Under the pieces are notes generated by a model. That model was not told the origin of the DNA and did not search any database. It saw only the letters and a list, made by a program, of their open reading frames with translations. Shown here piece after piece: positions 25,752 to 62,482 of a stretch of DNA of 64,000 nt. Location: NCBI RefSeq assembly GCF_032854445.1, contig NC_088304.1, positions 8,195,704 to 8,259,703 of the forward strand, read 5' to 3'. This DNA is from Liolophura sinensis (taxonomy: Eukaryota; Mollusca; Polyplacophora; Chitonida; Chitonidae). Position 1 is the first letter of the stretch. Each line of letters begins with the position of its first letter. Position numbers and translations under genes: made by a program.

Positions 25752-26935
25752 ATCGCATCACAGAGGAATGGGGTATTACAGAGAAATGGGACATCACAAG
25801 AATGGGGCATCACAGAGGAATGTGATATCTCAGAGAAATAGCACACAACAGAGAAATGGAGCATCACGGAGGAATGGTACATAGAGGAATGGAACATCAT
25901 AGAGGAATGTGGCATAACAGAGGAATGGGGCATCACAGAGGAATGGTACATCACAGAGGGATGGTACATCACAGAGGAACTGGGCATCACAGAGGAATGG
26001 GACACCACAGAGGAATGGGGCGTCATAGAAGAACGGCACGGAACACAGAAATGGAACATCACGGGGGAATGGGACAGCGCAAAGGAATGGGGCATCACAG
26101 AGGAATGGGGCATCGCAGAGGAATGGGGCATCACAGAGAAACGGGACATCACAGAGTAATGGGACAGCGCAGAGGAATGGGACAGAAGAGAGAAATGGAA
26201 CATCCCAAAGTAATGGAACACCGCAGAGGAATGGGACGTCACAGAGGAACGGGACATTACAGAGGAGCGGGACAGCGCAGAGTAATGGGACACCGCAGAG
26301 GAATGGGGCATCACAGACGAATAGGGCACCACAGAGGAATGGAGCATCACAGAGAAACGGGACATCACAGAGTAATGGGACACCGCAGAGGAATGGGACG
26401 TCACAGAGGAACGGGACAGAAGGGAGAAATGGAACATCATAGAGTAATGGGACACCGCAGAGGAATGGGACGTCACAGAGGAACGGGACAGAAGGGAGAA
26501 ATGGAATATCATAGAGTAATGGGACACCGCAGAGGAATGGGACGTCACAGAGGAACGGGACAGAAGAGAGAAAGGGAACATCACAGAGAAATGGGACACC
26601 GCAGAGGAATGGGACGTCACAGAGGAACGGGACAGAAGAGAGAAATGGAACATCATGGGGCGAATGGGACGGCGCAAAGGAATCGGGCATCACAGAGGAA
26701 TGGAGCACCGCAAAAAAATGGGGCATCACAGAGAAACGGGACATCACAGAGTAATGGGGCATCACAGAGGAATGGGACACAGAGGAATGGGACATGACAC
26801 AGAAATGAGACAGAACAGAGAAATAGAACATCACGGAGGAATGGGACATCACAGAGGAATTGGGCATCACAGAGGAACGGAACATCACAGAAGAATGGGA
26901 CACAACAGAGAAATGCAACATAACGGAGGAATAGG
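25752..26935. repeat. 18-bp minisatellite with 72-bp higher-order units
   Basis: About 65 copies of GAATGGGACATCACAGAG and variants. From 26372 to about 26659 four units repeat as a 72-bp block (starts at 26372, 26444, 26516, 26588). Because 18 is divisible by three, frames stay open on both strands for up to 363 codons; the products would be six-residue repeats such as HHRGMG or FLCDAP. There is no start context, intron or flanking domain to support a gene. Confidence 0.9.
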
Positions 26936-27169
26936 AAGTTTCTGTATAACTTACTATATGCTCATTGTGACTTTCTTGGGCGTATTGAATGACATTTACA
27001 TAACTGATAATTTCTCACCTTCATGGGTTGAAGCGTGTGTCTTCTGTTCCAAAACCGAAAAAGAATCCTACCTATCCATCTACATGTAATTACCACCCTA
27101 TAGTCCCTTCCAGCTGCATCTGTAACATAATGAAAGACGTACAGCAAAGAGAGTTAAACCACAGCATCG

Positions 27170-32778: not shown

Positions 32779-33689
32779 AGATCTAATAATAAATGTTATT
32801 GCATATACCTGTGCCAAATCAGGGTATGACGCTCAACATACCATGGCTATGAATCAAACAACTTGTTCATCGATACAAATCGTAAGAAATACAGATCCCG
32901 AGGACACAAAATATATCTACCTTAATTCTTCAACCTTTTCGCACACGAAAAAGCCACTTTAAGCGCAATCTATGTGCAGTTTAATTTGATTTTGGAAACA
33001 AAGCCACAATGGTTGGACTGGCCAATATCCGGGCTTCACAAAAGTATAATTTTATCAGTCTACACAGAATTATACCATGCTGTCTCAACGTTTAAATAAA
33101 AAAGCATGTAATACATTAACAAATTTCTTAACTTGTTAAAAACACACTAATTTGTGGCCAAAAATCAGTTGCAAAATTTTGTGACAAAACATATACTAAC
33201 CTATCTAACCAGTAAATATTTAGAACACCCAACTTTTATGCATATTTGCACACAAAAGTACAAGCAAAATTGTTTTGGCAATATTTTGGCAATGTTTTGT
33301 CCACACCAAACATCTGTACCTCTTGTAAAGCCTAAAATCGGCTAAGCATACCAGTGTAGATTTATCTTACAGATCATACTATAATTGGGAATAATAAGAC
33401 ACGAAAGTGATGCCGACAGCAATATACTCACAGGATATTCTAGATATGTTTGTAAGTCTTTGACAGCAATTCATGTCTGCACCAACACATTATAATGTAG
33501 CATCAACACACTCTCATTTCTAGAGCACACAACTAGTTTCAACACCATACATGCAAACGTACATACAATGTCATAAACCCCGCAAACCTGCTTTCACCAG
33601 TAAATTCAAAGCCTAACTGCAACTATTATCCCCATACAAGAGACCAGTTCCCTAAACCTTCTTTCACCAATATGCAAAACATCTACGCT
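32779..33689. other. AT-rich intergenic DNA
   Basis: Nothing recognised before the 74-bp minisatellite begins. Confidence 0.45.
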
Positions 33690-35720
33690 TCCCTGTTGGT
33701 TTGGCTGCAGGTCTATTCGTGAAGGCTTCAGATACCTGACCAATGAGCCAGAGGTGACATGCTTCCCTGCTGGTTTGGCTGCAGGTCTATTCAGGAGGGC
33801 TTCAGATACCTTGCCAATGAGCCCAAGGTGACGTGCTTCCCTGTTGGTTTGGCTGCAGGTCTATTCAGGAGGGCTTCAGATACCTGGCCAGTGAGCCAGA
33901 GGTGACGTGCTTCCCTGTTGGTTTGGCTGCAGGTCTATTCGTGGGGGCTTCAGATACCTGGCCAATGTGCCAGGGGTGACGTGCTTCCCTGCTGGTTTGG
34001 CTGCCGGCCTATTCGTGAGGGCTTCAGATACCTGGCCAATGAGCCAGAGGTGACATGCTTCCCTGTTGGTTTGGCTGCCGGCCTATTCAGGAGGGCTTCA
34101 GATACCTGGCCAATGAGCCAGAGGTGACATGCTTCCCTGTTGGTTTGGCTACCGGCCTATTCGTGAGGGCTTCAGATACCTGGCCAATGAGCCAGAGGTG
34201 ACGTGTTTCCCTGTTGGTTTGGCTGCCGGTCTATTCGTGAGGGCTTCAGATACCTGGCCAATGAGCCAGAGGTGACTTGTTTCCCTGCTGGTTTGGCTGC
34301 CGGCCTATTCGTGAGGGCTTCAGATACCTGGCCAATGAGCCAGAGGTGACATGCTTCCCTGTTGGTTTGGCTACCGGCCTATTCGTGAGGGCTTCAGATA
34401 CTGGCCAATGAGCCAGAGGTGACGTGTTTCCCTGTTGGTTTGGCTGCCGGTCTATTCGTGAGGGCTTCAGATACCTGGCCAATGAGCCAGAGGTGACTTG
34501 TTTCCCTGCTGGTTTGGCTGCTGGCCTATTCGTGAGAGCTTCAGATACCTCGCCAATGAGCTAGAGATGACATGCTTCCCTGTTGGTTTGGCTGCCGGCC
34601 TATTCGTGAGGGCTTCAGATACCTGGCCAGTGAGCCCAAGGTAACATGCTTCCCTGTTGGTTTGGCTGCAGGCCTATTCGTGGGGGCTTCAGATACCTGG
34701 CCAATGAGCCAGAGGTGACATGCTTCCCTGATGATTTGGCTGCAGGTCTATTCGTGGGGGCTTCAGATACCTGGCCAATGAGCCAGAGGTGACATGCTTC
34801 CTTGCTGGTTTGGCTGCCGGCCTATTCGTGAGGGTTTCAGATACCTGGCCAATGTGCCAGAGGTGACGTGTTACCTGGTGGTTTGGCTGCCGGCCTATTC
34901 GTGAGGACTTCAGATACCTGGCCAATGAGCCAGAGGTGACATGCTTCCCTGTTGGTTTGGCTGCTGGCCTATTCGTGAGGGCTTCAGATACCTGGCCAAT
35001 GAGCCAGAGGTGATGTGCTTCCCTGCTGGTATGGCTGCCGCCCTATTCGTGGGGGCTTCAGATACCTGGCCAATGAGCCAGAGGTGACATGCTTCCCTGT
35101 TGGTTTGGCTGCCGGCCTACTCGTGAGGGCTTCAGATACCTGGCCAATGAGCCAGAGGTGACGTGCTTCCCGGCTGGTTTGGCTGCAGGTCTATTCAGGA
35201 GGGCTGGAGATACCTGGCCATTGAGCCCAAGGTGACATGCTCCCCTGTCGGTTTGGTTGCAGGTCTATACAGGAGGGCTTCAGATACCTGGCCAGTGAGG
35301 CAGATGATTTGTTTCCCTTCTGGTTTGGCTGCTGGCATTTTCCTGAGGGCTTCAGATACCTGGCCAGTGAGCCAGAGGTGACATGCTTACCTGTTGGTTT
35401 GGCTGCCGGCCTATTTGTGAGGGCTTCAGATACCTGGCCAGTGAGCCAGAGGTGACATGCTTCCCTGTTGGTTTGGCTGCAGGCCTATTCCTGAGGGCTT
35501 CAGATACCTGACAGCATATTCAGGAGACCTTCAGATACCAGGCAGCCTATTCAGAAGGGCTTCAGATATCTGGCATGTTCAGGAATGTTTCAGATGCCTG
35601 GGCACTAAGCCAGAGGTGACGTGCTTCCCTGTTGGATTGGCTTCTGGTCTATTAAGGAGGGCTTCAGATACCTGGCCAATGAGCCAGAGGTTCAGGAGGG
35701 CTTCAGATATCAGATATGGC
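33690..35720. repeat. Minisatellite, 74-bp unit, ~27 copies
   Basis: Unit: GAGCCAGAGGTGACATGCTT, CCCTGTTGGTTTGGCTGCCG, GCCTATTCGTGAGGGCTTCA, GATACCTGGCCAAT. Copies are very similar in the middle and degrade after 35510. On the minus strand each unit holds GGCCAG|GTATCTG, a good 5' splice-site look-alike, as in the exon-derived arrays further right, but here I cannot find a parent exon. Open frames of 60-90 residues are by-products. Confidence 0.9.
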
Positions 35721-36012
35721 CAATGGTCATAACTATACACAAATCACAGTCCCACAAAGGATGTTACATTTAAGTCAAATCACTCTAACATTAAGGCTTT
35801 AAAAGTCTGAGAGTTATCTTCATTCGATCATTTGAATGTATAAACAAACCGTTAATTGAGAAAACAAATTCAGCAGTGATCCAATGTTGTAGTACTAAGC
35901 AATCACGCATAATTTAGTGACTGCTTTTGTAATACTAGTATTGCATGTTATAATATTGCATCTTGTAATTAAACAACATGGTTCAAGTCCAACTCATTTC
36001 TGGGTTGACCTC

Positions 36013-36235
36013 CCGGGATTTATTTATTAATTTATTTATTTATTTACTTATTTAATTGGTGTTTGACTCCGTACTCAAGAATACTTCACTTACATGATGG
36101 CTAGCAGCACTATAGTGGGAGAAACCCTTCAGAGCCCGGGGAAGACCCATGACTATCCACATGTTGCTGACACCCCCTTCAAAGTATGGCCGGAGAGGAA
36201 GCCAGCATGAGCTGAACTTGAACTCAACTGACCTA
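36013..36235 (-). mobile_element. SINE family A, head truncated
   Basis: Minus orientation with a (TTTA)n tail at about 36013-36050, then TTGGTGTTTGACTCCGTACT and AGAGGAAGCCAGCATGAGCT. It ends within the B-box region. Confidence 0.85.
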
Positions 36236-36278
36236 CGGGGAAAACTGTAGTTTAAAGTTATTTTTACCCCCAAAAAGA

Positions 36279-36462
36279 TAGATTATTTATTTATTTATTT
36301 ATTTATTTGGTGTTTTACGCCGTTCTCAAGAATATTTCACTTACACGATGGCTGCCAGCATCACAGTGGGAAGAAACCAGGCAGAGCCCGTGGCAGACCC
36401 ACGACCATCCAGGTTGATGGCTGACTTTCTCACGTATGGCTTGAGAGGAAGCCAGCATGGGC
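36279..36462 (-). mobile_element. SINE family A, head truncated
   Basis: A second minus-strand copy 45 bp away, with TTTATTTATTTATTTATTTG, GTGTTTTACGCCGTTCTCAA and GAGAGGAAGCCAGCATGGGC. It is less diverged than its neighbour. Confidence 0.85.
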
Positions 36463-36575
36463 AGAAGACAGAAGATAGCTGAGAAGTTTTAATGTACTTT
36501 AACATGTTAGACCAGATCATATATGTATACTCTGTGCTGTGCTATCAAATATAAAGGAAGCGTTTCATTTTTCCT

Positions 36576-38215
36576 TTAAGTTATGTCTTTCCGTCTAGAG
36601 GCCATACCCTGAAGAGTCCCATCCCAGTCACTGACAGCCATACCAGCCTCCACTCTGTAGGTTACTGTGTTATCTGATGTCTTGTACCACCGACTTGTCC
36701 GTACAAAGGTGACGGGAGATGGCCTGGGAGGTGCCAAAACCTAACATTCAAATAAGGAAGTAGAACAATCTGTAAGATTTACACACATAGGGTTAGCCAG
36801 CCACCGGTGAAACAGAAATGTGGTGCTATTTGGATACCTTGTTTTCAACACTTTTAACATATGAGAAAATGAAATCTGGACACTCTGCTATAACAAAATA
36901 ACCTCAAAAAGGGATGTTTGAACACTTTCTTTAAAATTTTTGGATAATCTCCTGTTTACACCTCCCTCTGTTTGACAAATCGAACTTATTTAAATGTGAA
37001 ATAGGCTAGATTTGGTTGATTTTATAAAACTTCAAGGTTGCAAAAAGTAATGTCATGAATTCATTCCACGAATTTCAAACATTCTATTTACTTCTTTATT
37101 TTATTGGTGTTTTACGCGGTACTCAAGAATATTTCACTTAAACGACTGCGGCCAACATTATGATGGAAGAAAACCGGACAGGGTCCAGGGGAAACCCACG
37201 ACCATCCGCAGGTTGCTTCCCACTTAAGACCGGAGAGTAAGCTAGCATGAGCTGGACTCACAGAAACCGCATTGGTGAGAGGCGATTGGGCCATTACGCT
37301 GCCCTAGCGCGCGAACCAACTCAGCCACGGAGGCTCCCAGACATTCTAATATGTTTAATTGTTTGTTTAATGTATTGAATGCTGTAATAAAAACTTAAAG
37401 GCATTATGTGTGACTGGTGTAACTCAACTCTGTAGGTGATGTAACTGGTTTAACTCAGCTGTGGGACTCACCACTGTGTTAAAGAGAACAGTGACAGGTT
37501 TGTAGTCACTCAGGATGTAGGAGGTGTGACTGGTGTAACTCATCTGTGGGACTCAGCACTATACCAAAGAGAGCAGTGACAGGTTTGTGGTCACTCAGGG
37601 TGTAGGAGGCGTGACTGGTGTAACTCAGCTGAGAGACTCATCACTATGTCAAAGAGAGCAGTGATAGGTTTATTGTAACTCGGGTTGTAAGAGGCGTGAC
37701 TGGTGTAACTCAGCTGTGGGACTCACGACTATGTCAAAGAAAGAAGTGACAGGTTTGTGGTCACCCAGGGTGTAGGAGGCGTGACTGGTGTAACTCAGCT
37801 GAGAGACTCACCACTATGTCAAAGAGAGCAGTGACAGGTTTGTTGTCACTCAGTATGAAGGATGTGTGACTGGTGTAAACCAGCTGTGGAACTCACCACT
37901 GTGTCAAAGAGGGCAGTGACAGGTTTATGGTCTCTCAGGGTGTAGGAAGTGTGACTAGTGCAACTCAGCTGTGGGACTCACCACTGTGTCAAAGAGGGCA
38001 GTGACAGGTTTGTGGTCACTCAGGGTGTAGGAGGTGTGACTGGTGTAACTCAGCTGTGGGACTCACCACTGTGTAAAAGAGGGCAGTGACAGGTTTATGG
38101 TCACTCAGGGTGTAGGAAGTGTGACTAGTGCAACTCAGCTGTGGGACTCACCACTGTGTCAAAGAGGGCAGAGACAGGTTTGTGGTCACTCAGGGTTTAG
38201 GAGGTGTGTAATTCG
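36576..38215 (-). CDS. Inositol polyphosphate 5-phosphatase, SKICH type (3' part)
   Basis: Two exon pieces are visible. In 37437-38215 the minus strand carries TSYTLSDHKPVTALFDTV followed by a GTGAGT donor. SDHKPV is the catalytic-core signature of inositol polyphosphate 5-phosphatases (Mg-dependent removal of the 5-phosphate from phosphoinositides or inositol phosphates). This piece is repeated about nine times, so the copy actually used is unclear. Next, 36740-36576 follows an acceptor (GAATGTTAG) and encodes 54 residues: APPRPSPVTFVRTSRWYKTS, DNTVTYRVEAGMAVSDWDG, then a stop at 36576-36578. This resembles the start of a SKICH domain (W...VxYxV...SxWD) as in INPP5J/INPP5K. GTG|GTT joins phase 0 to phase 0. 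A possible donor inside the last exon (CTTCAGG|GTATGG, GT at 36607-36606) means the gene may continue. Upstream catalytic exons were not found. Confidence 0.65.
37085..37338 (-). mobile_element. SINE family A, full length
   Basis: Complete minus-strand copy. The 3' end is TTATTTTATTGGTGTTTTAC, the body is GAAAACCGGACAGGGTCCAG, the B box is CTGGACTC with a deletion, and the head is GCGCGAACCAACTCAGCCAC then GGAGGC. It lies in the intron between the two 5-phosphatase exons. Confidence 0.85.
37437..38215 (-). repeat. 85-bp tandem array of SDHKPV pseudo-exons
   Basis: About nine copies of an 85-bp unit (for example starts at 37526, 37611, 37696 on the plus strand). On the minus strand each unit is about 50 nt of 5-phosphatase coding sequence (TACACCCTGAGTGACCACAA, then ACCTGTCACTGCCCTC, TTTGACACAGTG), a GTGAGT donor, then about 35 nt ending TTACACCAG, an acceptor look-alike. 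Each copy could thus act as an in-frame mini-exon. The topmost copy has TAA in place of TAC. Confidence 0.85.
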
Positions 38216-38316
38216 ACTGCTTCGCTTCCAGCTCCTTTACACGCATCTGCATGGACCATCCACAGGATGTGATCACACAAAGCAGGCTTACGACTTTTTC
38301 TGCATAAAGTTGTTTT

Positions 38317-38586
38317 TTTATTTATTTTTTATTTTATTGATGTTTTACGCCGTACTCAAGAATATTTCAATAATACGACGGCGGCCAGCATTATGGTGGG
38401 TCGAAACCGGGCAAAGCCCGGGGGAAACCCACGACCATCCGCAGGCTGCTAGAAGACCTTCCCACTTACGGCCGGAGAGGAAGCCAGCATGAACAGGACT
38501 TGAACTCACAGCGACCGCATTGATGATAGACTCCTGGGTCATTGCGCCGCGCTAGCGCGCTAATCAACTGAGCCACGGAGGCCCCT
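38317..38586 (-). mobile_element. SINE family A, full length (best reference copy)
   Basis: Contains every module: TTTATTTTATTGATGTTTTA tail side, CGTACTCAAGAATATTTCA, GCCAGCATTATGGTGGGTCG, CGGAGAGGAAGCCAGCATGA, B box on the minus strand (GAGTTCAAGTCC), and the tRNA-like head GCGCTAGCGCGCTAATCAAC, TGAGCCACGGAGGCCCC. Confidence 0.9.
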
Positions 38587-48108: not shown

Positions 48109-51100
48109 TCAAATGACAACAAACATGAAGTCACAACCCTGTGAACAGAAAAAGAGGGCAATTAAATTCACTGATCAAATAAACTAAGTAACATTAAGCA
48201 AACAAACACCATACAAAATGCTTCAATATATTAATATCAAGCCATGAAGGGTGAATTTCTGTATGTATATTTCACACCTTATATTGCTCAGGCCCCACAG
48301 TGGTAAGTACAGTGTCAAAAACTGCACATTGTACATGTATGTGCAAATTACAGTAAACAATGATGAAATCCAAATTGTCATTAATAGGTTATACATCATA
48401 AAACATGTCACCCATGACACATCCCTATTTAGTTCTAGCTCGCGTACCCATAGATTATTATCTATAGAGACCAAGCCCTACTCCGTACTGCCATATTTTA
48501 CCAACCTACCTCTGGTAAATGTTGACGGCTATAAAACTCCTTAACGGTAGATCTATTTTAAAAGTCTCATGCGCTGTGCGGCCATGTTGACACTACTTGT
48601 ATGTCATGGTTTTGGGTGCCCGCATGTTGAACACTTGTCACTTCTCGGATTTTACCAAACCAGACTACGGAGTAAATAACACCACAAAAACTTTTGCCAC
48701 TAAAGTTCGGCAAGAGCCAAGTGTTCGACAAGCAGATCCCCAAAAACCTGACGTAGTATCAACATGGCTGTCCTGCTTGAAACACTTTTGAAAATGGATC
48801 TATTGTTCAGGAGTTCCCGTGTGCATTAACTAGAGGCTGCCCGGACAAGCATCTAACTGAGAAGAACAGCATGGTGGGTTGGTAAAATACGGCTGCAGGG
48901 AGTAGGAAGACGTTCAGGCTTAGCCTATATAGGTGATTTGCAATGACAGCCATCTTTGATATAAGATTGAGTATTGCCCACTGGTTGTCTATTGTTAGAG
49001 GCATCATAAGCTAGGCAGAGGCCCTTGGCTGGTAAGGGCATACAATGGGCAATATACACAAACTTACCTTAAAGATGGCTGCCACTGCAAACCATCTATA
49101 GATAACAATCTATGGGTAAGCCTGTAAGAGCTAATCTCTATCATGCTATCAACAGGTTCTACAAACCTGATATGTCATCAACAGGTACTACATACCAGAC
49201 ATGTCATCAACAGGTTCTACAAACCTGATATGTCATCAACAGGTACTACATGTACACGCCAGACATGTCATCAACAGGTTCTACATGTACACGCCTGACA
49301 TGTCATCAACAGGTTCTACATACCTAACATGTCAGCAACAGGTACTACATACCTGATATGTCATCAACAGGTTCTACATGTCTGACATGTCATCTATAGG
49401 TTCTACATAACTGATAGGTCATCTACAGGTTCTCCATACCTGATATGTCATCAACAAGTCCTACATGTACATAGTGCCCATGTCATCAACAGGTTCTACA
49501 TACTGCCCATGCCATCAACAGGTGCTACGTACCTGATATATCATCAAGAGCAGGGTGAGAATTTCGCCGCGAGTCCGCGAGCCGACTCGCGCCAAGACTC
49601 GTGCAAAAGTCCAGTGGGGCGAGTCCATGTGGACTCGCGCAAAACGTAACATGTATACATGGTTTGTTTGGTAAAAGGTTTCACTTTCTGACGCGTGTTC
49701 CTGTCTCAAATAACTTAAAATTGGGAACCGACGGATGTTGACACTCTCGGACATTTACGACTGCCGTAAATTGGCCGAGTATTGCCATACATAAGACACG
49801 GTCGCTGATTGGTCATGCAGAAATGTGTCAACCAGTCAATGCCGTTTTAACTCTGTCGAGGTTGACGACCGCTGCCAAACTCCTCACCTCGTTTTTTGAC
49901 AGCATGATCTCGGCTAAGCATCTGCGGGAGAATATTGACTATAAGTATTTTGTTCAGTCTTAACATTGAAGGCAGTTATACTGAATTTAGTGTCTTTAAA
50001 GATATAACTGTGAAGAAACTACTGGTTAACAAAACTTCGCCCTGTTTGTGCAGAAAAAATGTACCTTTGTATGGCAGAGGAATAGTTTGTTTTCAGTCGG
50101 ACACTCACACGAGGGCCGAATGACTGTTTACAAAAATGGCGTCCCGTGGGAAATGCATATCGAAAAGGTCCATTGCTCTTTGGGAGGATGATTTAAAATC
50201 AAATTTTGAATTTACGTTGGATGATGGAGGAGAGAAAGTAGTGGCTGCAACATGCAGTCTGCTTACATTTATGTTGTTATTTGAGTGCTTCTGTTCCTGA
50301 TGAATAAATCTGTTGAAATTTTCAACATTGGTTTTAACATCAAACTAAAAACGCAACTTTGTATAATCAGCTAAGCTTTTCTCATATGTTTATCATATGC
50401 TGAATTATGGTATTCATTTATTGTGTCCTGTTGCCTGATTGTTAGTTGGCACTTGTGACAAGGGCTCGCCATCAATAAAAGTCGATTTAGGTTAATTTGT
50501 CACCAAACCGTTTGTGTTTAAAGTTTTGATAAATCTAAACATTAAAAGAGTTAAACTGAATTTTAGTTGTTTCTTACATGTATATACATTTATTTTGAGA
50601 ATTTTCGTTTTGACTCTTTGGGCTCTCGCAAATGGCAGTAGTGGGAGTCCACCTGGACTCTCGCATCTCCGCACGAAATTCTGACCCTGAACAGGTTCTA
50701 CATATACATACCTGACATGTCATCAACAGGTTCTGTATGCCAGCTGCTCCCACTACAGTAAACCTTGGGTCCTGATCACAGTGACTGTTGTTGTGAGCTG
50801 CCATCCCCTCCTCCAGCTGCTGTCTGACCTGGGACAGGCTCAGGCAGTCCTGCTGTGGGTGACAAAAGAGACAGGGTGAGGCCTAACACTAAAGTAACAT
50901 ACAGACCTGGGGATGGTGAGGAGGGTTCTATCTTCAAAGTAAGCAGCATGTATTTACGAACGCTTAACTTTCAGCCACAACATGTACTACATTCTGGAGC
51001 AATAAAAACTAATCTGATATACTCATTATTATCATCCTGATTCTATTGTAAAGTACACCATACACACGTACACGTGACATACCATACCTCAGTGTCAATC

Positions 51101-54100
51101 CGAACTCCACATTTACAGAATATCACACTCAAGTTCTGCATCAGGGGATACCTGCAAACACAGAAGTCAGCTTATCGAGTATAACTGATTATGACTACAT
51201 AAGCATTCCCCCTTGAGTCATTGTGCTTTACACGCATGTAAAACTTCTCATAAACACATGCTGTACTTTTTGAGATACAAAACCTAACATTTTGTTTTAA
51301 CTTGGTTTCTAAAACACAATAGACTAAGTCAGGAATTTGGTAATTTACGATATTTAATAAGCACATATTCAATCAATGACGGAATATCCCCCTCATGCTA
51401 TTGTGCTCTACATCAGTGCAATCATAAAGTCAATAAATGCAGTGATTTTTAAGATACCACCCCTAACATTTTGTTCAATATTCTGTTTAATATTGCCTTC
51501 CCTGTTATTGAACGCCAATTCCAACACTCAGGGTACGACATACATTACTAATAAGCCGCCTACCACTGACACATTGGGCAGATCAGTTCATCTGTGTGCA
51601 GACATTCTACAGATGTACACGGTATAAATGTCTCACCAAACAGTAAACTTTGATCACGCCACCTACCTCTGACCCATTGGTTAGACCAGTTCATTTGTGT
51701 GCAGACATTCTATAGATGTACACAGTATAAATGTCTCATCAAACTGTAAACTTTGATCACACCACCTACCTCTGACACATTGGTTAGACCAGTTCATCTG
51801 TGTGGAGACATTCTATACATGTACACAGTATAAACGTCCCACCAAACTGTAAACTTTGATCACACCACCTACCTCTGACACACTGGGCAGATCAGTTCAT
51901 CTGTGTGGAGACATTCTATACATGTACACAGTATAAACGTCTCATCAAACTGTAAACTTTGTTAACACCACCTATCTCTGACACTGGGCAGATCAGTTCA
52001 TCTGTGTACAGACATTCTATACATGCACACAGTATAAATGTCTCATCAAACTGTAAACTTTGTTAACACCACCTATCTCTGACACACTGGGCAGATCAGT
52101 TCATCTGTGTACAGACATTCTATACATGCACACAGTATAAATGTCTCATTAAACAGAAACTTTGTTAACACCACCTACCTCTGACACATTAGGCAGATCA
52201 GTTCATCTGTGTGCAGACATTCTATACATGCACACAGTATAAATGTCTCATCAAACAGTAACTTTGTTAACACCACCTACCTCTGACACATTGGGCAGAT
52301 CAGTTCATCTGTTTGCAGACATTCTATACATGTACACAGTATAAACGTCTCATCAAACAGTAACTTTGTTAACACCACCTATCTCTGACACACTGGGCAG
52401 ATCAGTTCATCTGTGTGCAGACATTCTATACATGTACACAGTATAAATGTCTCATCAAACAGTAACTTTGTTAACACCACCTACCTCTGACACATTGGTT
52501 AGACCAGTTCATCTGTGTACAGACATTCTATACATGTACACAGTATAAATGTCTCATCAAACAGTAACTTTGTTAACACCACCTACCTCTGACACATTGG
52601 GCAGATCAGTTCATCTGTGTACAGACATTCTATACATGCACACAGTATAAATGTCTCATCAAACAGTAACTTTGTTAACACCACCTACCTCTGACACATT
52701 GGGCAGATCAGTTCATCTGTGTGGAGACATTCTATACATGCACACAGTATAAATGTCTCATCAAACAGTAACTTTGTTAACACCACCTATCTCTGACACA
52801 CTGGGCAGATCAGTTCATCTGTGTGCAGACATTCTATACATGTACACAGTATAAACGTCTCATCAAACAGTAACTTTGTTAACACCACCTACCTCTGACA
52901 CACTAGGCAGATCAGTTCATCTGTGTACAGACATTCTATACATGTACACAGTATAAATGTCTCATCAAACAGTAACTTTGTTAACACCACCTACCTCTGA
53001 CACATTGGGCAGATCAGTTCATCTGTGTGCAGACATTCTATACATGCACACAGTATAAATGTCTCATCAAACAGTAACTTTGTTAACACCACCTACCTCT
53101 GACACATTGGGCAGATCAGTTCATCTGTGTACAGACATTCTATACATGCACACAGTATAAATGTCTCATCAAACAGTAACTTTGTTAACACCACCTACCT
53201 CTGACACATTGGGCAGATCAGTTCATCTGTTTGCAGACATTCTATACATGTACAAAGTATAAATGTCTCATCAAACAGTAACTTTGTTAACACCACCTAC
53301 CTCTGACATACTGGGCAGATCAGTTCATCTGTGTACAGACATTCTATACATGTACAAAGTGTAAATGTCTCATCAAACTGTAAACTTTGATCACATCACC
53401 TACCTCTGACACACTGGGCAGATCAGTTCATCTGTTTGCAGACATTCAATAGATGCACACAGTAATGCTTCATCAAACTGTAAACTTTGATCGAATTCTT
53501 CCAGCAACCTCTGTTCTACAAAACAAAGAGAAGAACATACCAGGATGAATAAACAAGTAGGATTTTTTTAATTATAAAAGTATTCCAAAACAAAAGTAAC
53601 AAAAGTTAACAGACCTTTGGCACTAAAGATATGTTTCATAAAAAACATGAAAATAACTCAAGCCTAACTCAAGACTGATCTGAGCTGGGTGGATATACAT
53701 GTAGTTGGACAAATCAGATTTGTCTTTTTCTCTTTTGTACCACAAACACCTTGTCTGCTTCCACATACCTTAACAAATCAGATCTGCCTGAATCTCCACA
53801 AAACACACAGAAATGTGACCGAGACTCTCTTTGTACCCCAGACAACCTGTCAGCTCACTTGTACCTTCTCACATCAGATCTGCCTGAATCTCCACAAAAC
53901 ACACAGAAGTCTGACCGAGACTCTCTTTGTACCCCAGACAACCTGTCAGCTCACTTGTACCTTCTCACATCAGATCTGCCTGAATCTCCACAAAACACAC
54001 AGAAGTGTGACCGACTCTCTTTGTATCACAAACAACCTGTCAGCTCACTTGTACCTCCTCTCATCAGATCTGCCTGAATCTCCACAAAACACACAGAAGT

Positions 54101-57100
54101 GTGACCGAGACTCTCTTTGTATCACAAACAACTTGTCTGCTCACTTGTACCTTCTCTCATCAGATCTGCCTGAATCTCCACAAAACACACAGAAGTCTGA
54201 CCGAGACTCTCTTTGTATCACAAACAACCTGTCTGCTACCACATACCTTCTCTCATCAGATCTGCCTGAATCTCCACAAAACACACAGAAGTGTGACCGA
54301 GACTCTCTTTGTACCCAGACAATCTGTCTGCTAACACATACCTTCTCTCATCAGATCTCCCTGAATCTCCACAAAACACACAGAAGTGTGACCGAGACTC
54401 TCTTTATATCACAAACAACTTGTCTGCTAACACATACCTTCTCTCATCAGATCTGCCTGAATCTCCACAAAACACACAGAAGTGTGACCGAGACTCTCTT
54501 TGTACCCCAGACAACCTGTCTGCTAACACATACCTTCTCTCATCAGATCTACCTGAATCTCCACAAAACACACAGAAGTGTGACCGAGACTCTCTTTGTA
54601 CCCCAGACAACCTGACTGCTCACACATACCTTCTCTCATCAGATCTGCCTGAATCACCACAAAACACACAGAAGTCTGACCGAGACTCTCTTTGTATCAC
54701 AAACAACTTGTCTGCTCACACATACCTTCTCTCATCAGATCTGCCTGAATCTCCACAAAACACACAGAAGTCTGACCGAGACTCTCTTTGTACCCCAGAC
54801 AACCTGTCTGCTAACACATACCTTCTCACATCAGATCTGCCTGAATCTCCACAAAATACACAGAAGTGTGACCGAGAGACTCTTTGTATCACAAACAACC
54901 TGTCTGCTCACTTGTACCTTCTCTCATCAGATCTGCCTGAATCTCCACAAAACACACAGAAGTTTGACCGAGACTCTCTTTGTACCCCAGACAACCTGTC
55001 TGCTAACACATACCTTCTCTCATCAGATCTGCCTGAATCTCCACAAAACACACAGAAGTCTGACTGAGACTCTCTTTGTATCACAAACAACTTGTCTGCT
55101 CACACATACCTTCTCACATCAGATCTGCCTGAATCTCCACAAAACACACAGAAGTCTGACCGAGACTCTCTTTGTATCACAAACAACTTGTCTGCTAACA
55201 CATACCTTCTCACATCAGATCTGCCTGAATCTCCACAAAACACACAAAAGTGTGACCGAGAGACTCTTTGTACCCCAGACAACCTGTCTGCTAACACATA
55301 CCTTCTCTCATCAGATCTGCCTGAATCTCCACAAAACACACAGAAGTGTGACCGAGACTCTCTTTGTATCACAAACAACCTGTCTGCTCACTTGTACCTT
55401 CTCACATCAGATCTGCCTGAATCTCCACAAAACACACAGAAGTCTGACCGAGACTCTCTTTGTACCCCAGACAACCGGTCTGCTAACACATACCTTCTCT
55501 CATCAGATCTGCCTGAATCTCCACAAAACACACAGAAGTGTGACCGAGACTCTCTTTGTACCCCAGACAACCTGTCTGCTAACACATACCTTCTCTCATC
55601 AGATCTGCCTGAATCTCCACAAAACACACAGAAGTGTGACTGAGACTCTCTTTGTACCCCAGACAACCTGTCTGCTAACACATACCTTCTCTCATCAGAT
55701 CTGCCTGAATCTCCACAAAACACACAGAAAGTCTGACCGAGACTCTCTTTGTACCCCAGACAACCTGTCAGCTCACTTGTACCTTCTCACATCAGATCTG
55801 CCTGAATCTCCACAAAACACACAGAAAGTCTGACCGAGACTCTCTTTGTACCTCAGACAACCTGTCTGCTAACACATACCTTCTCACATCAGATCTACCT
55901 GAATCTCCACAAAACACACAGAAGTGTGACCGAGACTCTCTTTGTACCCCAGACAACCTGTCTGCTAACACATACCTTCTCTCATCAGATCTGCCTGAAT
56001 CTCCACAAAACACACAGAAGTGTGACCGAGAGACTCTCTTTGTACCCCAGACAACCTGTCTGCTAACACATACCTTCTCTCATCAGATCTGCCTGAATCT
56101 CCACAAAACACACAGAAGTGTGACCGAGACTCTCTTTGTACCCCAGACAACCTGTCTGCTAACACATACCTTCTCTCATCAGATCTGCCTGAATCTCCAC
56201 AAAACACACAGAAGTGTGACCGAGACTCTCTTTGTATCACAAACAACCTGTCTGCTCACTTGTACCTTCTCACATCAGATTTGCCTGAATCTCCACAAAA
56301 CACACAGAAGTGTGACCGAGAGACTCTTTGTACCCCAGACAACCTGTCTGCTAACACATACCTTCTCTCATCAGATCTGCCTGAATCTCCACAAAACACA
56401 CAGAACAGTGACCGAGACCCTTTGTACCCCAGACAACCTGTCTGCTAACACATACATGTACCTTCTCACATCAGATCTGCCTGAATCTCCACAAAACACA
56501 CAGAAGTCTGACCGAGAGACTCTTTGTACCCCAGACAACCTGTCTACTAACACATACCTTCTCTCATCAGATCTGCCTGAATCTCCTCGAATATGGCCAA
56601 GACAGAATCGATGTTGTTCAAATCATCATCAAACTGAAACAAGACAACAAAATATGAACAAGCAATGGTATGTACATGTACGTACCGACAATAAAATGCC
56701 ATATTTCTTCAGGTCTGACTGCAACGGAGAAGTATTTTTTTTATACTTGACAGATACTTTACAGCATAGCCAGTTAAAGGCACAGTCCATGTTCCAAATA
56801 CTTTACAGCATAGCCAGTTAAAGGCACAGTCCATGTTCCAAATACTTTACAGAATAGCCATTTAAAGGCACAGTCCATGTTCCAAATACTTTACAGCATA
56901 GCCAGTTAAAGGCAAGGTCCATGTTCCAAATACTTTACAGCATAGCCAGTTAAAGGCACAGTCCATGTTCCAAATACTTTACAGCATAGCCAGTTAAAGG
57001 CACAGTCCATGTTCCAAATACTTTACAGAATAGCCAGTTAAAGGCACAGTCCATGTTCCAAATACTTTACAGAATAGCCAGTTAAAGGCACAGTCCATGT

Positions 57101-60100
57101 CCCAAATACTTTACAGCATAGCCAGTTAAGGGCACAGTCCATGTTCCAAATACTTTACAGAATAGCCATTTAAAGGCACAGTCCATGTTCCAAATACTTT
57201 ACAGAATAGCCAGTTAAAGGCACAGTCCATGTTCCAAATACTTTACAGCATAGCCAGTTAAAGGCAAGGTCCATGTTCCAAATACTTTACAGCATAGCCA
57301 GTTAAAGGCACAGTCCATATTCCAAAATATCCATTTTAGCCAAATTTTGACACACACGTACATCAATACACATGTATGTGTGCATTTTCTGAAAGGTAAG
57401 CTGGTGTTCATTTCAACAAAGCAATCAATATTTTTATCAACAATGAAATTGTACATACTGATAAAAATGTTAAGCCTGATTTTAATACCACAATCAGACA
57501 AGTTTTACACTTAGAGATCCCATAATTTGTTTACAACCCTTATTCCTAACAACATTATTTTCACACTATATGTTCCATGACACAATATTTATGCTACATT
57601 AGTCTGTAAATTGCACATAAAAAAATAATCTGGCTCCCTGGCTCTACCTGGTTTCCTCCCACCATATAATACTGGTCGCAGTCATACAAGTTCAATATAT
57701 TTTAGCAAGCCCTAGCAAAGTAAAACTATTGGACAAATACATAACTGAAAAAACCTGTTGGTTGAGCAGGCCTACTATCATTTACAAGGACTGCCAGCTC
57801 AGCATTTGTCGATTTGCTTCAGGTGTTGCCATGTACAGTAGAATGTACAGGAAATGCGGAAAAGTACGTTCCGCCTGGTGTTCAGGCCGTGTGACCCAGT
57901 TCAAATTGCCTCCAGATGCAATAGGGATTCCTGACTCAGGTTACAGTCTCTAGAGGGATTACTGCATGCTGGCGACTTTACCCCCTAGTAGGTGTTTTCA
58001 AAAATACAACAAATTTTCATAGAAATCATGGAAAAAAATCCTGTGTCCAACTAGAGCTAATGACCTACACATTCAACTGTTGATCAAGGGTTCACTGTCT
58101 TTTGTTGTCAACAGTACTGCTATTTTACACATAATATTTTACACAATAAATATTCTGAAGGTTGATTCTGGGGCAAAACATATTTGCCCGTAAGGGTGTT
58201 CGCCCAACTCAGTACAATCGTAAGTCATACGGTGAAGCGTATGTATAGATCTGACAGCATGGACCACCAGAAAGGAGAGATAAAACTTATCAAAACTTAA
58301 CAGAGTAGTTGTGCTCAATGTTGCTTTTTATGGGTCAAGAATGGGTCAGTATGATACTGTTTGACATAAGTTTCGATACTTTGTTGAATATTACATGGCT
58401 TGTAAATCAACTGGTTTTACACAAGTGGTGATCAAAACGGCACGAACATGAACAGTTTCACCTTAGTTAGTATTACATATCCCTACTAAAGTTTAAGAAA
58501 TTGTTTTGGACTGAGACTGGAATTTCTGTAGTTACAGGGCCATATCTAGAAACAAATTTGAAGCTTCTGACCTACAAACTTTAAAGGTGACATTGTGACA
58601 GCATATATGAAGAAATTTTATCAAATGGAACAGTACAGACGCTTTTTGGAATCTTCTGAGTCTGTGAATGAAGGAAGTTTGTATGGAAACTTAACTTTTT
58701 ATTGGTAAACCATCACATTTGCATGTACTTGTTAGTTTTAATAGCGCCCACAAGTTTGGGAGCCCAAACATTTTCCAGGACTAAAATGGCTCTAGATATG
58801 GTCCTGAGTTAATCACATAATCACCCTGAATTCCTCTGCCTGATCGGCCAGCCTCGGCAAGTCCTCTTTGTCTCCCTTCAGAGCATGCCATTCTTCCTTC
58901 ATCAGGCTTTTGATGAAGGATTTGTTAGATTGGTGTGGAATGTTTCTGAATCTATCCTGAAGTTTCTGTCTGCTCGACTTCAGCTTCTCCAGGCACCTCT
59001 GAAAGACGCAACAAATGTCTCAGTAAGTCCTGTCAGATTCATTGTGCATGTCCCCCGACTCCCATCGTCCCACCCCCAACTCCATACACCATACAGTTCC
59101 AATTTCCCCTTTCAGATTACAAAAATGCCTTGTATGACTGTTAAATAAAGCATACATAAGAAATATTATACACCATTTATTTCACTCTCAAAATCATCTG
59201 TAACCACACTATTTCGCTGACTTAAAGATAGTAAAGATAAAAAAATAAACAACTTATTCATGAGAAAGATTACTTATTCAATTACTTCATTGGTGTTGAA
59301 CGCTGTACCCATGAGAAAGATTAACATTATGATAAAAACAATTTGTGTTGAAGGAAGACTTCTTGTAGATTTTGGCACGATAACAAATTGCGCTGTGTAA
59401 AGGCACCTTCATTATGTGAAGATTAACACGTTGAAAACATCAGATGTGTTCATAATGTGTTGTGCACAGGTCCTAATTATTCACAACTATGTTAAAAGTT
59501 CATATTTTCAGTAAGTTTAAGGCTGCCAATATGTTGTTATGTGCTCGTGTATGGGCCTTGATCATCCACTGTCAACCGCCCATATACACCTGCTATCAGT
59601 CACAAAACTGTGCCCCAGAATTCACGTAGTTTAAAGTGTTGACCAAATGATTTATTTATTTATTTATCTGATTGGTGTTATCAAGAATATTTCACTTATA
59701 CGACGCCAACCAGCATTATGGTGGGCGGAAACCAGCAGAGCCCTGGGGAAACCCACAACCATCCAAAGGTTGCTGGCAGGCCTTCTCACTTACAGCCGGA
59801 GAGGAAGCCAGCATGAGCTGGACTTGAAGTCACAGCAACTACATTCGTGAGAGGCTCCTGGGTCATTCTGCTGCGCTAGCATGCTAACCAACTAAGCCAC
59901 AGAGACCCCTTGGACAAATGGCACATCACATGTACTTTATGCTCAAAATTCTAGCTAAAACCAGAACTACTTATTAAAGTCTAGTGTGACAGCTGCTCAA
60001 ATTATTAGCATTGTCTCAGTAACATAAGAAAGAGGTACACATATCAGCCAAAGCCAAAGATGGCCAAGGTCTGCTATCATACCATAATGTGTAAATTTGG

Positions 60101-61020: not shown

Positions 61021-62482
61021 CCTCGGAGCTACCTTGAATGTCTTCATGTGTATATAAATGCTACATATAACTGCGCTCGTCTTTTAATAAACATGTTTTT
61101 GTGCTTATAAAAATTCATAAATACGATCAACAATTGTTAAATTAGGGATACTATTTAGGAACTGGAGATAAAAGAAAAACATTAACATGCTGACCCTGAT
61201 ACATGTCAGTGGTTCAAAGTTTTAAAATTTTAGGCCTTATGTGAGGACTCATTACATATATATTTTAAATAGAGGTTTTTTAAGTGTATATAAGCACGCA
61301 GGCTGACACACGTCACAAAACAAAGTTAAATATTCTTGCGTAATTTTGAATCCAACATTAAAGAGTGATAAACTGAGTAATAAGCCAAAGAACTCAAGTC
61401 TGTTTATAAATTCTGCAACACTGTCATGGTTGTATAGAGCCCTCATTTACAGCGTGATGATCCGCTGACAGTACGCCCAGGGTTGGCCAAGGGTCCGCGT
61501 CTGATGGACGGTGGATCGCATCAAGTTACGCGCATGAAGGTGCATTTTCGGCGTATCGTACAATGACCCATGGGCTGACCGCAAGCATATCCTTCGGCTA
61601 CAGTGGGTGTAAGATTGATGGTTAGGATCCGTCTATACTGTAAGTCCCGTCTAAACAATGTCTGTAGTACAAAACAGGTGTCAACTTTCGACTTTCATCT
61701 CTCAGCTCTCCTGCACATGGAATATTCTTGGTATATTCCACTCAGGAATGGCACCATACTCCTCACACGGCCAAAAATTTTAAAACAAGGCAGCCATATG
61801 CTATCCTGAAACAAGTTTTTCAAGACATAAAACTGTGGCGAAGGCAAAATGGCTCCTGCTGCTGCTTCAGCGATGACCAGGGCATGAATTGGGGTTTCGT
61901 GTATCATTACCAAATGTAATATTCACGAGGTGTTGCGTGTGTGGGAAAGCTGAAAGGTAAGAGCCACAGTTAACACCTCTTTTGGACTGCAGAAATTAAC
62001 TAGAAAAGATTTATCGAACTCAGAAAAACGAGAAACAGTGTACCGTTTACCATTGGCTGCAGCTGCGGCTATGATATATAGCCCCGTATAGAGGAGTTGA
62101 AATAGCCACCCTGGGGCTACTGTACGTTGATTGCTGGCCCACCACTCAGATGTTCATTGAGAAAAGAACCTTCTTTAAGTTAGTTTTTTTAGTGAATTGA
62201 TGTCAATCTGCCATGTTAGAGCAGCCTCAGCTTAAGAAACCACAGCACTAAGCGTACTCCACTAAAAGTAAGCCCCTAGTTGCCTGTTTGCTGTCTGCCT
62301 AGTTGAGAGCTAGCCCTGGAAGCCTAGTCGGCCTACTCTTAGACATGTTTGATGGAGCGAAATCGAAACTGCGATGAACATGGTAACACCTTTCTGTAAG
62401 TTTCCTTCCAAGGTGGCGTTGATGACTTATACATTTGTTTGTGTCTTGACACGGCTGGTGATCGCTTAACCGACCCGTCCAT
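48109..62482 (-). CDS. RPAIN: RPA-interacting protein, seven coding exons, 229 residues
   Basis: Exons on the minus strand: 62482-62390 (start MDGSVKRSP, ends PPWKETYRK), 58998-58825 (RCLEKLKSSRQKLQDRF, MKEEWHALKG), 56633-56558 (AIFEEIQADLMRE), 53515-53404 (FDQSLQFDEALL, DELICPVCQ), 51151-51088 (NLSVIFCKCGVRIDTE), 50852-50712 (VRQQLEEGMAAHNNSHC, FTVVGAAGIQNLLMTCQ) and 48138-48109 (GCDFMFVVI, stop). All junctions are GT-AG and in phase; the summed 690 nt gives 229 residues, close to the ~219 of vertebrate RPAIN. Family features present: N-terminal YKxxxPPWKExxR-RCLE, the MxEEW helix, and the zinc-finger residues CPVC, CKCG, H-x4-HC and CQGC. The family binds the RPA70 subunit of replication protein A and carries RPA into the nucleus with importin-beta. 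The ATG at 62480-62482 has a strong context (ATCATGG). Introns 3, 4 and 6 are filled with tandem copies of the preceding exon ends. Confidence 0.93.
48915..49124. mobile_element. Fold-back element in RPAIN intron 6
   Basis: Arms 48915-48980 and 49045-49124 are imperfect inverted repeats. The left arm reads CAGGCTTAGCC ... TGCAATGACAGCCATCTTTG ... ATTGCCCA; the right arm reverse complement reads CAGGCTTACCC ... TGCAGTGGCAGCCATCTTTA ... ATTGCCCA. There is 64 bp of loop. A MITE or snap-back repeat; no target duplication is clear. Confidence 0.7.
49145..50730 (-). repeat. 29-bp array copied from exon 6 end, RPAIN intron 6
   Basis: On the minus strand the unit is AACCTGTTGATGACATGTCA, G|GTATGTAG: the last 21 nt of RPAIN exon 6 plus 8 nt of donor. 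About 14 copies run from 49145 to 49545. The array is split by a 1.14-kb insertion (49551-50689) and the remaining 40 bp joins exon 6 at 50712. Some units have gained extra TACATG. Confidence 0.85.
49551..50689. mobile_element. DNA-transposon-like insertion with TIRs
   Basis: The left end CAGGGTGAGAATTTCG and the right-end reverse complement CAGGGTCAGAATTTCG are terminal inverted repeats, and similarity continues through GCGGAG/GCGAG and GTCCA-GTGGACTC words. The CAGGG start is typical of hAT elements. Inside, a 54-codon frame at 50136-50300 (plus) begins MASRGKCISKRSIALWEDDL after AAAATGGCG, but no transposase domain is recognisable. It interrupts the 29-bp array; an 8-bp target duplication is not evident. 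Confidence 0.65.
51560..53403 (-). repeat. 102-bp array copied from RPAIN exon 4 (intron 4)
   Basis: About 18 units with a 102-bp period (for example 52091, 52193, 52295). On the minus strand each is about 94 nt matching exon 4 (GATCAAAGTTTACAGTTTGA and variants, CAGATGAACTGATCTGCCCA, TGTGTCAGAG) followed by GTAGGTGGT. The unit therefore nearly equals the exon plus its donor, keeps the CPxC codons, and has no acceptor. One codon has been inserted relative to the exon. The array fills the intron up to the genuine exon at 53404-53515. Confidence 0.9.
53757..56557 (-). repeat. 96-bp array copied from exon 3 end (RPAIN intron 3)
   Basis: About 29 units. On the minus strand each includes GGAGATTCAGGCAGATCTGA, TGAGAGAAG (last 29 nt of exon 3), then GTATGTGTTAGCAGACAGGT and about 47 nt more. 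Two alternating variants exist (with TTTGTACCCCAGACAACC or TTTGTATCACAAACAAC on the plus strand). Frames up to 321 residues on both strands follow from 96 being a multiple of three and are not separate genes. Confidence 0.92.
56760..57325. repeat. 44-bp minisatellite in RPAIN intron 2
   Basis: Thirteen near-identical units of GTCCATGTTCCAAATACTTT, ACAGCATAGCCAGTTAAAGG, CACA. Unlike the arrays of introns 3, 4 and 6 it has no match to an RPAIN exon end and sits at the acceptor side of its intron. Confidence 0.9.
57630..57712 (+). mobile_element. SINE family A fragment
   Basis: CTACCTGGTTTCCTCCCACC, ATATAATACTGGTCGCAGTC, ATACAAGTTCAATATATTTT; only the central part, quite diverged. Confidence 0.6.
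59648..59911 (-). mobile_element. SINE family A, full length, in RPAIN intron 1
   Basis: Tail (ATTT)n at 59648-59665, AAGAATATTTCACTTATACG, CAGCATTATGGTGGGCGGAA, GAGAGGAAGCCAGCATGAGC, B box and tRNA-like head (GCTAACCAACTAAGCCACAG). Part of the 3' terminal GCGTAAAACAC motif is lost. Confidence 0.85.
60366..62122. repeat. Inverted repeats 1.6 kb apart in RPAIN intron 1
   Basis: Arm 60366-60445 (TAGCCCCAGGTGGCTATTTC, AACTTCTC, GGCTGCAACCTATGGTAAAC) matches the reverse complement of 62046-62122 (TAGCCCCAGGGTGGCTATTT, CAACTCCTC, GCTGCAGCCAATGGTAAAC). Between them are a long AT microsatellite (60984-61018) and unremarkable sequence. They could be the ends of a decayed DNA transposon or two solo copies. 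Confidence 0.7.

Follow-up and report, generated by a model that had tools for sequence, protein, structure and literature searches.

The window, the whole stretch of 64,000 nucleotides analysed here, comes from a chiton, a mollusc, and contains the gene RPAIN on the minus strand. The gene has seven exons. Reading frame and splice signals fixed their positions, giving a coding sequence of 690 nt in frame, and the protein translated from the joined exons has matches to all three Pfam RPA_interact domains (N, M and C). The exon structure, and hence the boundaries of the arrays described below, was deduced from homology and frame (Table 1).

Table 1. Positions of the RPAIN exons, the tandem arrays and other features in the window.
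Feature	Position	Strand	Basis or remark
RPAIN exon 1 (coding, ATG to donor)	62390..62482	-	frame and splice signals
RPAIN exon 2	58825..58998	-	frame and splice signals
Intron 2 array, 44 bp x 13	56754..57326	-	TRF
RPAIN exon 3; last 29 nt are unit 1 of the intron 3 array	56558..56633	-	
Intron 3 array, 96-bp unit: 29 nt of exon 3 end + 67 nt of intron	53729..56586	-	TRF 29.7 x 96
RPAIN exon 4; last 94 nt are unit 1 of the intron 4 array	53404..53515	-	
Intron 4 array, 102-bp unit: 94 nt of exon 4 end + 8 nt of intron	51559..53497	-	TRF 18.6 x 102 (TRF span 51559-53464)
RPAIN exon 5	51088..51151	-	
RPAIN exon 6; the intron 6 array unit corresponds to its last 21 nt	50712..50852	-	
1.13-kb repeated element, interrupting the intron 6 array region between exon 6 and the array	49556..50688	.	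sequence matches
Intron 6 array, 29-bp unit: 21 nt of exon 6 end + 8 nt of intron	49137..49547	-	TRF 13.2 x 29
RPAIN exon 7 (final coding exon, stop codon TGA)	48109..48138	-	
INPP5-like exon end, then 85-bp x 9.2 donor-junction array	37431..38334	-	PF22669 positions 231-287, E 0.024, below family cut-off

Introns 3, 4 and 6 of RPAIN contain tandem arrays whose unit joins the end of the upstream exon to its donor, as the earlier note had read from the letters, and its coordinates hold. The units lie head to tail in TRF, span the exon-intron boundary given by frame and homology, including the splice signal, and are not identical to one another. Most units in introns 3 and 4 carry AG/GT at the repeated junction. 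A 28-mer from each donor junction (20 exon and 8 intron nt), searched in the following intron with up to 5 mismatches, found 29 copies in intron 3, 16 in intron 4 and 10 in intron 6, and none in introns 1, 2 and 5. Acceptor-junction 28-mers had no copies in any of the six introns. The match of the units to the exon ends above background, on which the earlier note had staked its reading, was checked using 100 shuffles per donor query and the reverse complement of each RPAIN intron, all of which returned zero matches.

The arrays provide 29 decoy donors in intron 3 (GT in 29/29, equal score in 20), 18 in intron 4 (GT in 14/18) and 14 in intron 6 (GT in 8/14). The initial figure of some 60 decoys is thus correct for units, of which a looser probe counts 61, but too high for GT donors, since GT is retained in 51/61. 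Past the authentic donor, the first stop is reached within 11 nt in intron 3, within 4 nt in intron 4 and after 138 nt in intron 6.

Comparison of the array consensus with the exon end revealed 29 identities over 29 positions in intron 3 and 82 over 94 in intron 4. This difference in divergence suggests that the two arrays differ in age and fits separate events, as had been proposed. The intron 6 array does not adjoin exon 6, because the 1.13-kb element lies between them. Matches 97-99% identical to the element appear in 7 further rows on contigs C13, C3 and C4, and by eye it has imperfect terminal inverted repeats; from its position between exon 6 and the array, the intron 6 array probably predates the insertion. 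Intron 2 holds a fourth array, which is non-exonic, showing no match above shuffles to any RPAIN exon (best with exon 5, equalled by 19 of 200 shuffles).

A donor-junction array is also present elsewhere in the window. Positions 33687-38334 carry, in inverted orientation and with about 80-88% identity, a copy of the 3' part of an INPP5-like gene located at C10:8274798-8280500. The copy includes the exon end, the 85-bp donor array and a 74-bp array, with 9 units of the 85-bp array against 44 at C10. The C10 locus passes the PF22669 cut-off (E 2.8e-9), and from the sequence match the window's copy may be truncated. Separately, an 18-bp x 66 array occupies positions 25756-26936 of the window. Contig C99 of the assembly shows a mitochondrial COX1 match about every 15.5 kb and probably represents concatenated mitochondrial sequence that remained in the assembly.

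Other genes were located in the genome by Pfam exon matches to INPP5-like proteins, myosins, glycogen phosphorylase, PGI, ribonucleotide reductase and carnitine acyltransferases, and 279,574 bases were sampled outside the window. The sample took in 19 of 26 INPP5-like and 61 of 83 myosin match rows; excluded were 22 myosin rows lying beyond the sampled stretches, 2 rows for INPP5 on C3, the exon row of the window itself and 4 array-copy rows. Five of seven carnitine acyltransferase regions and none of 19 DNA polymerase matches were sampled, and some modelled splice sites are doubtful. Of the myosin and INPP5 stretches, 22.7% is array sequence; for the enzyme stretches the share is 12.1%. Donor-junction arrays built like those of RPAIN were found in myosins, in INPP5-like genes and in a carnitine acyltransferase, which gives no support to the idea that RPAIN itself is special. 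Ten of the 12 loci outside RPAIN are plain donor arrays, in which exon end, donor and intron piece are followed by the exon end once more. The remaining two are a short PYG array (15 bp x 2.5) and a 32-bp array on C11, the latter separated from its exon by about 60 nt of unlike sequence and left out of all counts. On the acceptor side, a myosin at L008:1346-2706 has 43 copies of a 32-bp unit that holds a polypyrimidine tract and AG and ends 9 nt inside the exon.

A first donor count by 28-mer missed short units and was replaced by an array-edge count and a count over bounded introns. The array-edge count, which has 64 distinct donors from 80 INPP5-like and myosin exons and draws its expectation from non-exonic positions of the same stretches, found arrays spanning 8 of 135 donors (0.96 expected) and 2 of 151 acceptors (1.27 expected) in the sampled genes. 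The 44-copy INPP5-like array at C10:8274798, an 82-bp array on C11 and a 121-bp array on C3 are not among these hits; the exons of the last two have no Pfam row and were read as myosin by eye. In a stricter test, each array was collapsed to one unit, and it was asked how often that unit would straddle a boundary. The set comprised 82 bounded introns (adjacent profile positions, consistent splice pair), 15 of which hold arrays. Donors were straddled 6 times against 1.53 expected (P 0.005), while acceptors in the same introns showed no significant excess (2 against 1.05, P 0.28). Removal of the C10 locus, which had been picked because the window pointed there, left 5 against 1.23 (P 0.008), and further removal of the 15-bp PYG array gave P 0.03. 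The donor excess rests on few genes: the 8 loose hits include 2 in CPT_C13 and 2 in C12, and three of those outside these two are single cases.

The orientation of donor motifs within arrays gave an additional measure. Among 74 arrays, 11 have strong motifs (score at least 16.5) on the sense strand and 1 on the antisense strand (P 0.006); a cut-off of 16 gives 12 against 2, with about 1 in shuffled units, and a cut-off of 15.5 gives 14 against 5 (P 0.06). Arrays that do not span a boundary were also counted within 100 nt of splice sites in two gene sets, with 6 (1.57 expected) and 0 (1.07) at donors and 6 (2.21) and 3 (1.24) at acceptors. Such arrays crowd exons in three of the four comparisons, and a tendency to lie near exons in general may therefore account for part of the donor excess. 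At the rate of 6 in 82, the chance that at least 3 of 6 introns in a given gene hold such arrays is 0.007 if introns are independent, and some genes with at least three would be expected among about 28,000 predicted genes.

Decoy strength and variation were analysed in twelve arrays, namely the ten plain donor arrays and RPAIN introns 3 and 4. Donor strength was a simple score, and a few of the 10 decoys in one C12 array are false units. By this score, 143 of 217 decoys equal the authentic donor, 73 are below it and 1 is above. The smallest intron part of a unit among 14 arrays is 8 nt. Exon- and intron-derived columns vary alike: a wrap-around alignment in which units were not chosen by exon similarity showed less variation in the exon part in 7 of 12 arrays (combined P 0.43). 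Better conservation of the exon part, through constraint or re-seeding from the exon, had been considered earlier; it was seen when units were chosen by exon similarity, disappeared with the wrap-around alignment and was dropped. Array length also varies, as tandem carnitine acyltransferase genes at C1:18984400-19025000 (L032-L035), about 96% alike, share a 33-bp intronic array with 42.5 and 9.5 copies. Both this difference and that between 44 and 9 units in the INPP5-like copies were seen between paralogous copies within one assembly.

In amphioxus, minisatellites lying across exon-intron boundaries are known as mirages and have been described in Adh3, in the globins BflGb6 and BflGb9 and in PGBD5, according to two papers (PMC3087553, PMC3902484). 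These papers credit the first description to Canestro et al. 2002, and place these arrays at donors and acceptors, with copies carrying AG/GT and splicing reported as regular. The chiton arrays are filed here as mirages by their structure. We propose, with good confidence, that they are minisatellites of this type, produced by boundary-spanning tandem duplication, minisatellite growth and selection keeping the first donor. A small tandem duplication spanning an exon-intron boundary would place an exon end and its donor within the intron, leaving the coding exon and donor intact if the unit includes the whole 5' splice site. Slippage or unequal exchange would then expand the copies, to 45 units at most, with a turnover like that of minisatellites. 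The earlier note had already suggested that the boundary was duplicated and the array then grew, which fits the make-up of the units. Selection would keep the first unit, since the coding exon lies there and no other donor preserves the reading frame in introns 3 and 4; such selection would also explain the at least 8 intron nt in every unit, enough for a whole 5' splice site. Later units seem free of constraint, as their columns vary alike, donors decay in some arrays and copy number differs between paralogues. An acceptor excess may be absent because scanning would tend to take the first AG.

The open frame and the amphioxus reports lead us to infer that splicing chooses the first donor. As 143 of the decoys equal the authentic donor and a single one exceeds it, position and not strength should decide the choice, and the first donor is predicted to be picked among many donors of mostly equal score, most likely via exon definition. 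On this explanation as a whole, in which we place the same good confidence, the chiton genome makes donor arrays repeatedly, and RPAIN is one gene with three such events.

The arrays might instead reflect chance only, with minisatellite-rich introns overlapping donors at random and boundaries not preferred. We consider this possible but doubtful. The array coverage of the sampled stretches, the RPAIN intron 2 array that is not exon-derived and strict-test P values of only 0.005 to 0.03 lend it some weight, whereas the donor excess, about fourfold in the strict and about eightfold in the looser count, and the 11 to 1 sense-strand bias at the higher cut-off argue against it. The joint probability for RPAIN alone, a gene chosen after the fact, is 0.00066, which also tells against chance. 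A more far-reaching possibility is that exon-donor junctions are true hot spots of tandem duplication in this lineage, for example through DNA breaks or R-loops that form at 5' splice sites to which the splicing machinery is bound on the nascent RNA. Splicing itself would then seed minisatellites, and chitons and amphioxus would share a convergent mutational signature. We hold this stronger reading to be improbable.

It is very unlikely that the repeated donors are functional and regulate splicing, for instance as decoys lowering RPAIN output via premature stops. An intact GT in every intron 3 decoy and the immediate stop past the donor in introns 3 and 4 would suit such a role, but GT is lost in 4 of 18 decoys in intron 4, in 6 of 14 in intron 6 and in 14 of 38 in one CPT array, and the exon columns are no better kept than the intron columns. 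The earlier note had also seen a resemblance to intron birth by tandem duplication, in which repeats created the introns. In the Rogers 1989 model, as related in PMC4974935, the duplicated piece supplies both splice sites. The AG/GT in most units of introns 3 and 4 recalls this model, but none of the six RPAIN acceptor junctions is copied and the arrays stop 213, 407 and 998 nt before the acceptors of introns 3, 4 and 6. As both splice sites should derive from the duplicated segment, we rejected intron birth, which appears barely credible. An assembly artefact is just as implausible. Arrays are hard to assemble, and the published HiFi coverage is only 14x (PMC11068029); however, at the mean of 8,347 bp given in the same paper the HiFi reads exceed the 2.9-kb intron 3 array in length, individual units are not identical, and arrays of the same composition occur at other loci.

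We prefer the explanation by tandem duplication over the boundary, with growth of the array behind a selected first donor. If about 6 to 7% of chiton introns carry mirages, as in our small sample, these arrays would represent a convergent route of intron growth. Each array is in addition a ready test of splice-site choice, with up to 45 donors, mostly equal in score and each preceded by a copy of the same exon sequence, the first of which gives the protein. In the literature covered, which was partial and included few subscription journals, we found no report of mirages in molluscs, and the descriptions found were only in amphioxus. New here are the mollusc host, the scale, the moderate donor excess and the presence of up to 45 donors mostly equal in strength.

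Among known systems, the ordinary intronic minisatellite, such as the 44-bp array of RPAIN intron 2, belongs to the same array class and the same genome, but its unit has no exon part or copied donor. The chiton arrays share with the Rogers model the tandem duplication of a piece bearing AG/GT and differ from it in that the acceptor is not copied and the intron is not made by the repeat. They are closest to the amphioxus mirages: both consist of minisatellite-like units that repeat an exon-intron boundary in tandem, often with AG/GT, within genes that are otherwise normal. In the amphioxus reports, units range from 10-72 bp in Adh3 to about 160 bp, and BflGb6 has 6 and 3 units in two haplotypes. 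Whereas those mirages belong to a cephalochordate, the arrays described here belong to a mollusc, reach 45 units and can occur several to a gene. In RPAIN they lie at donors only, and the sampled chiton genes show a donor excess, with 8/135 donors against 2/151 acceptors.
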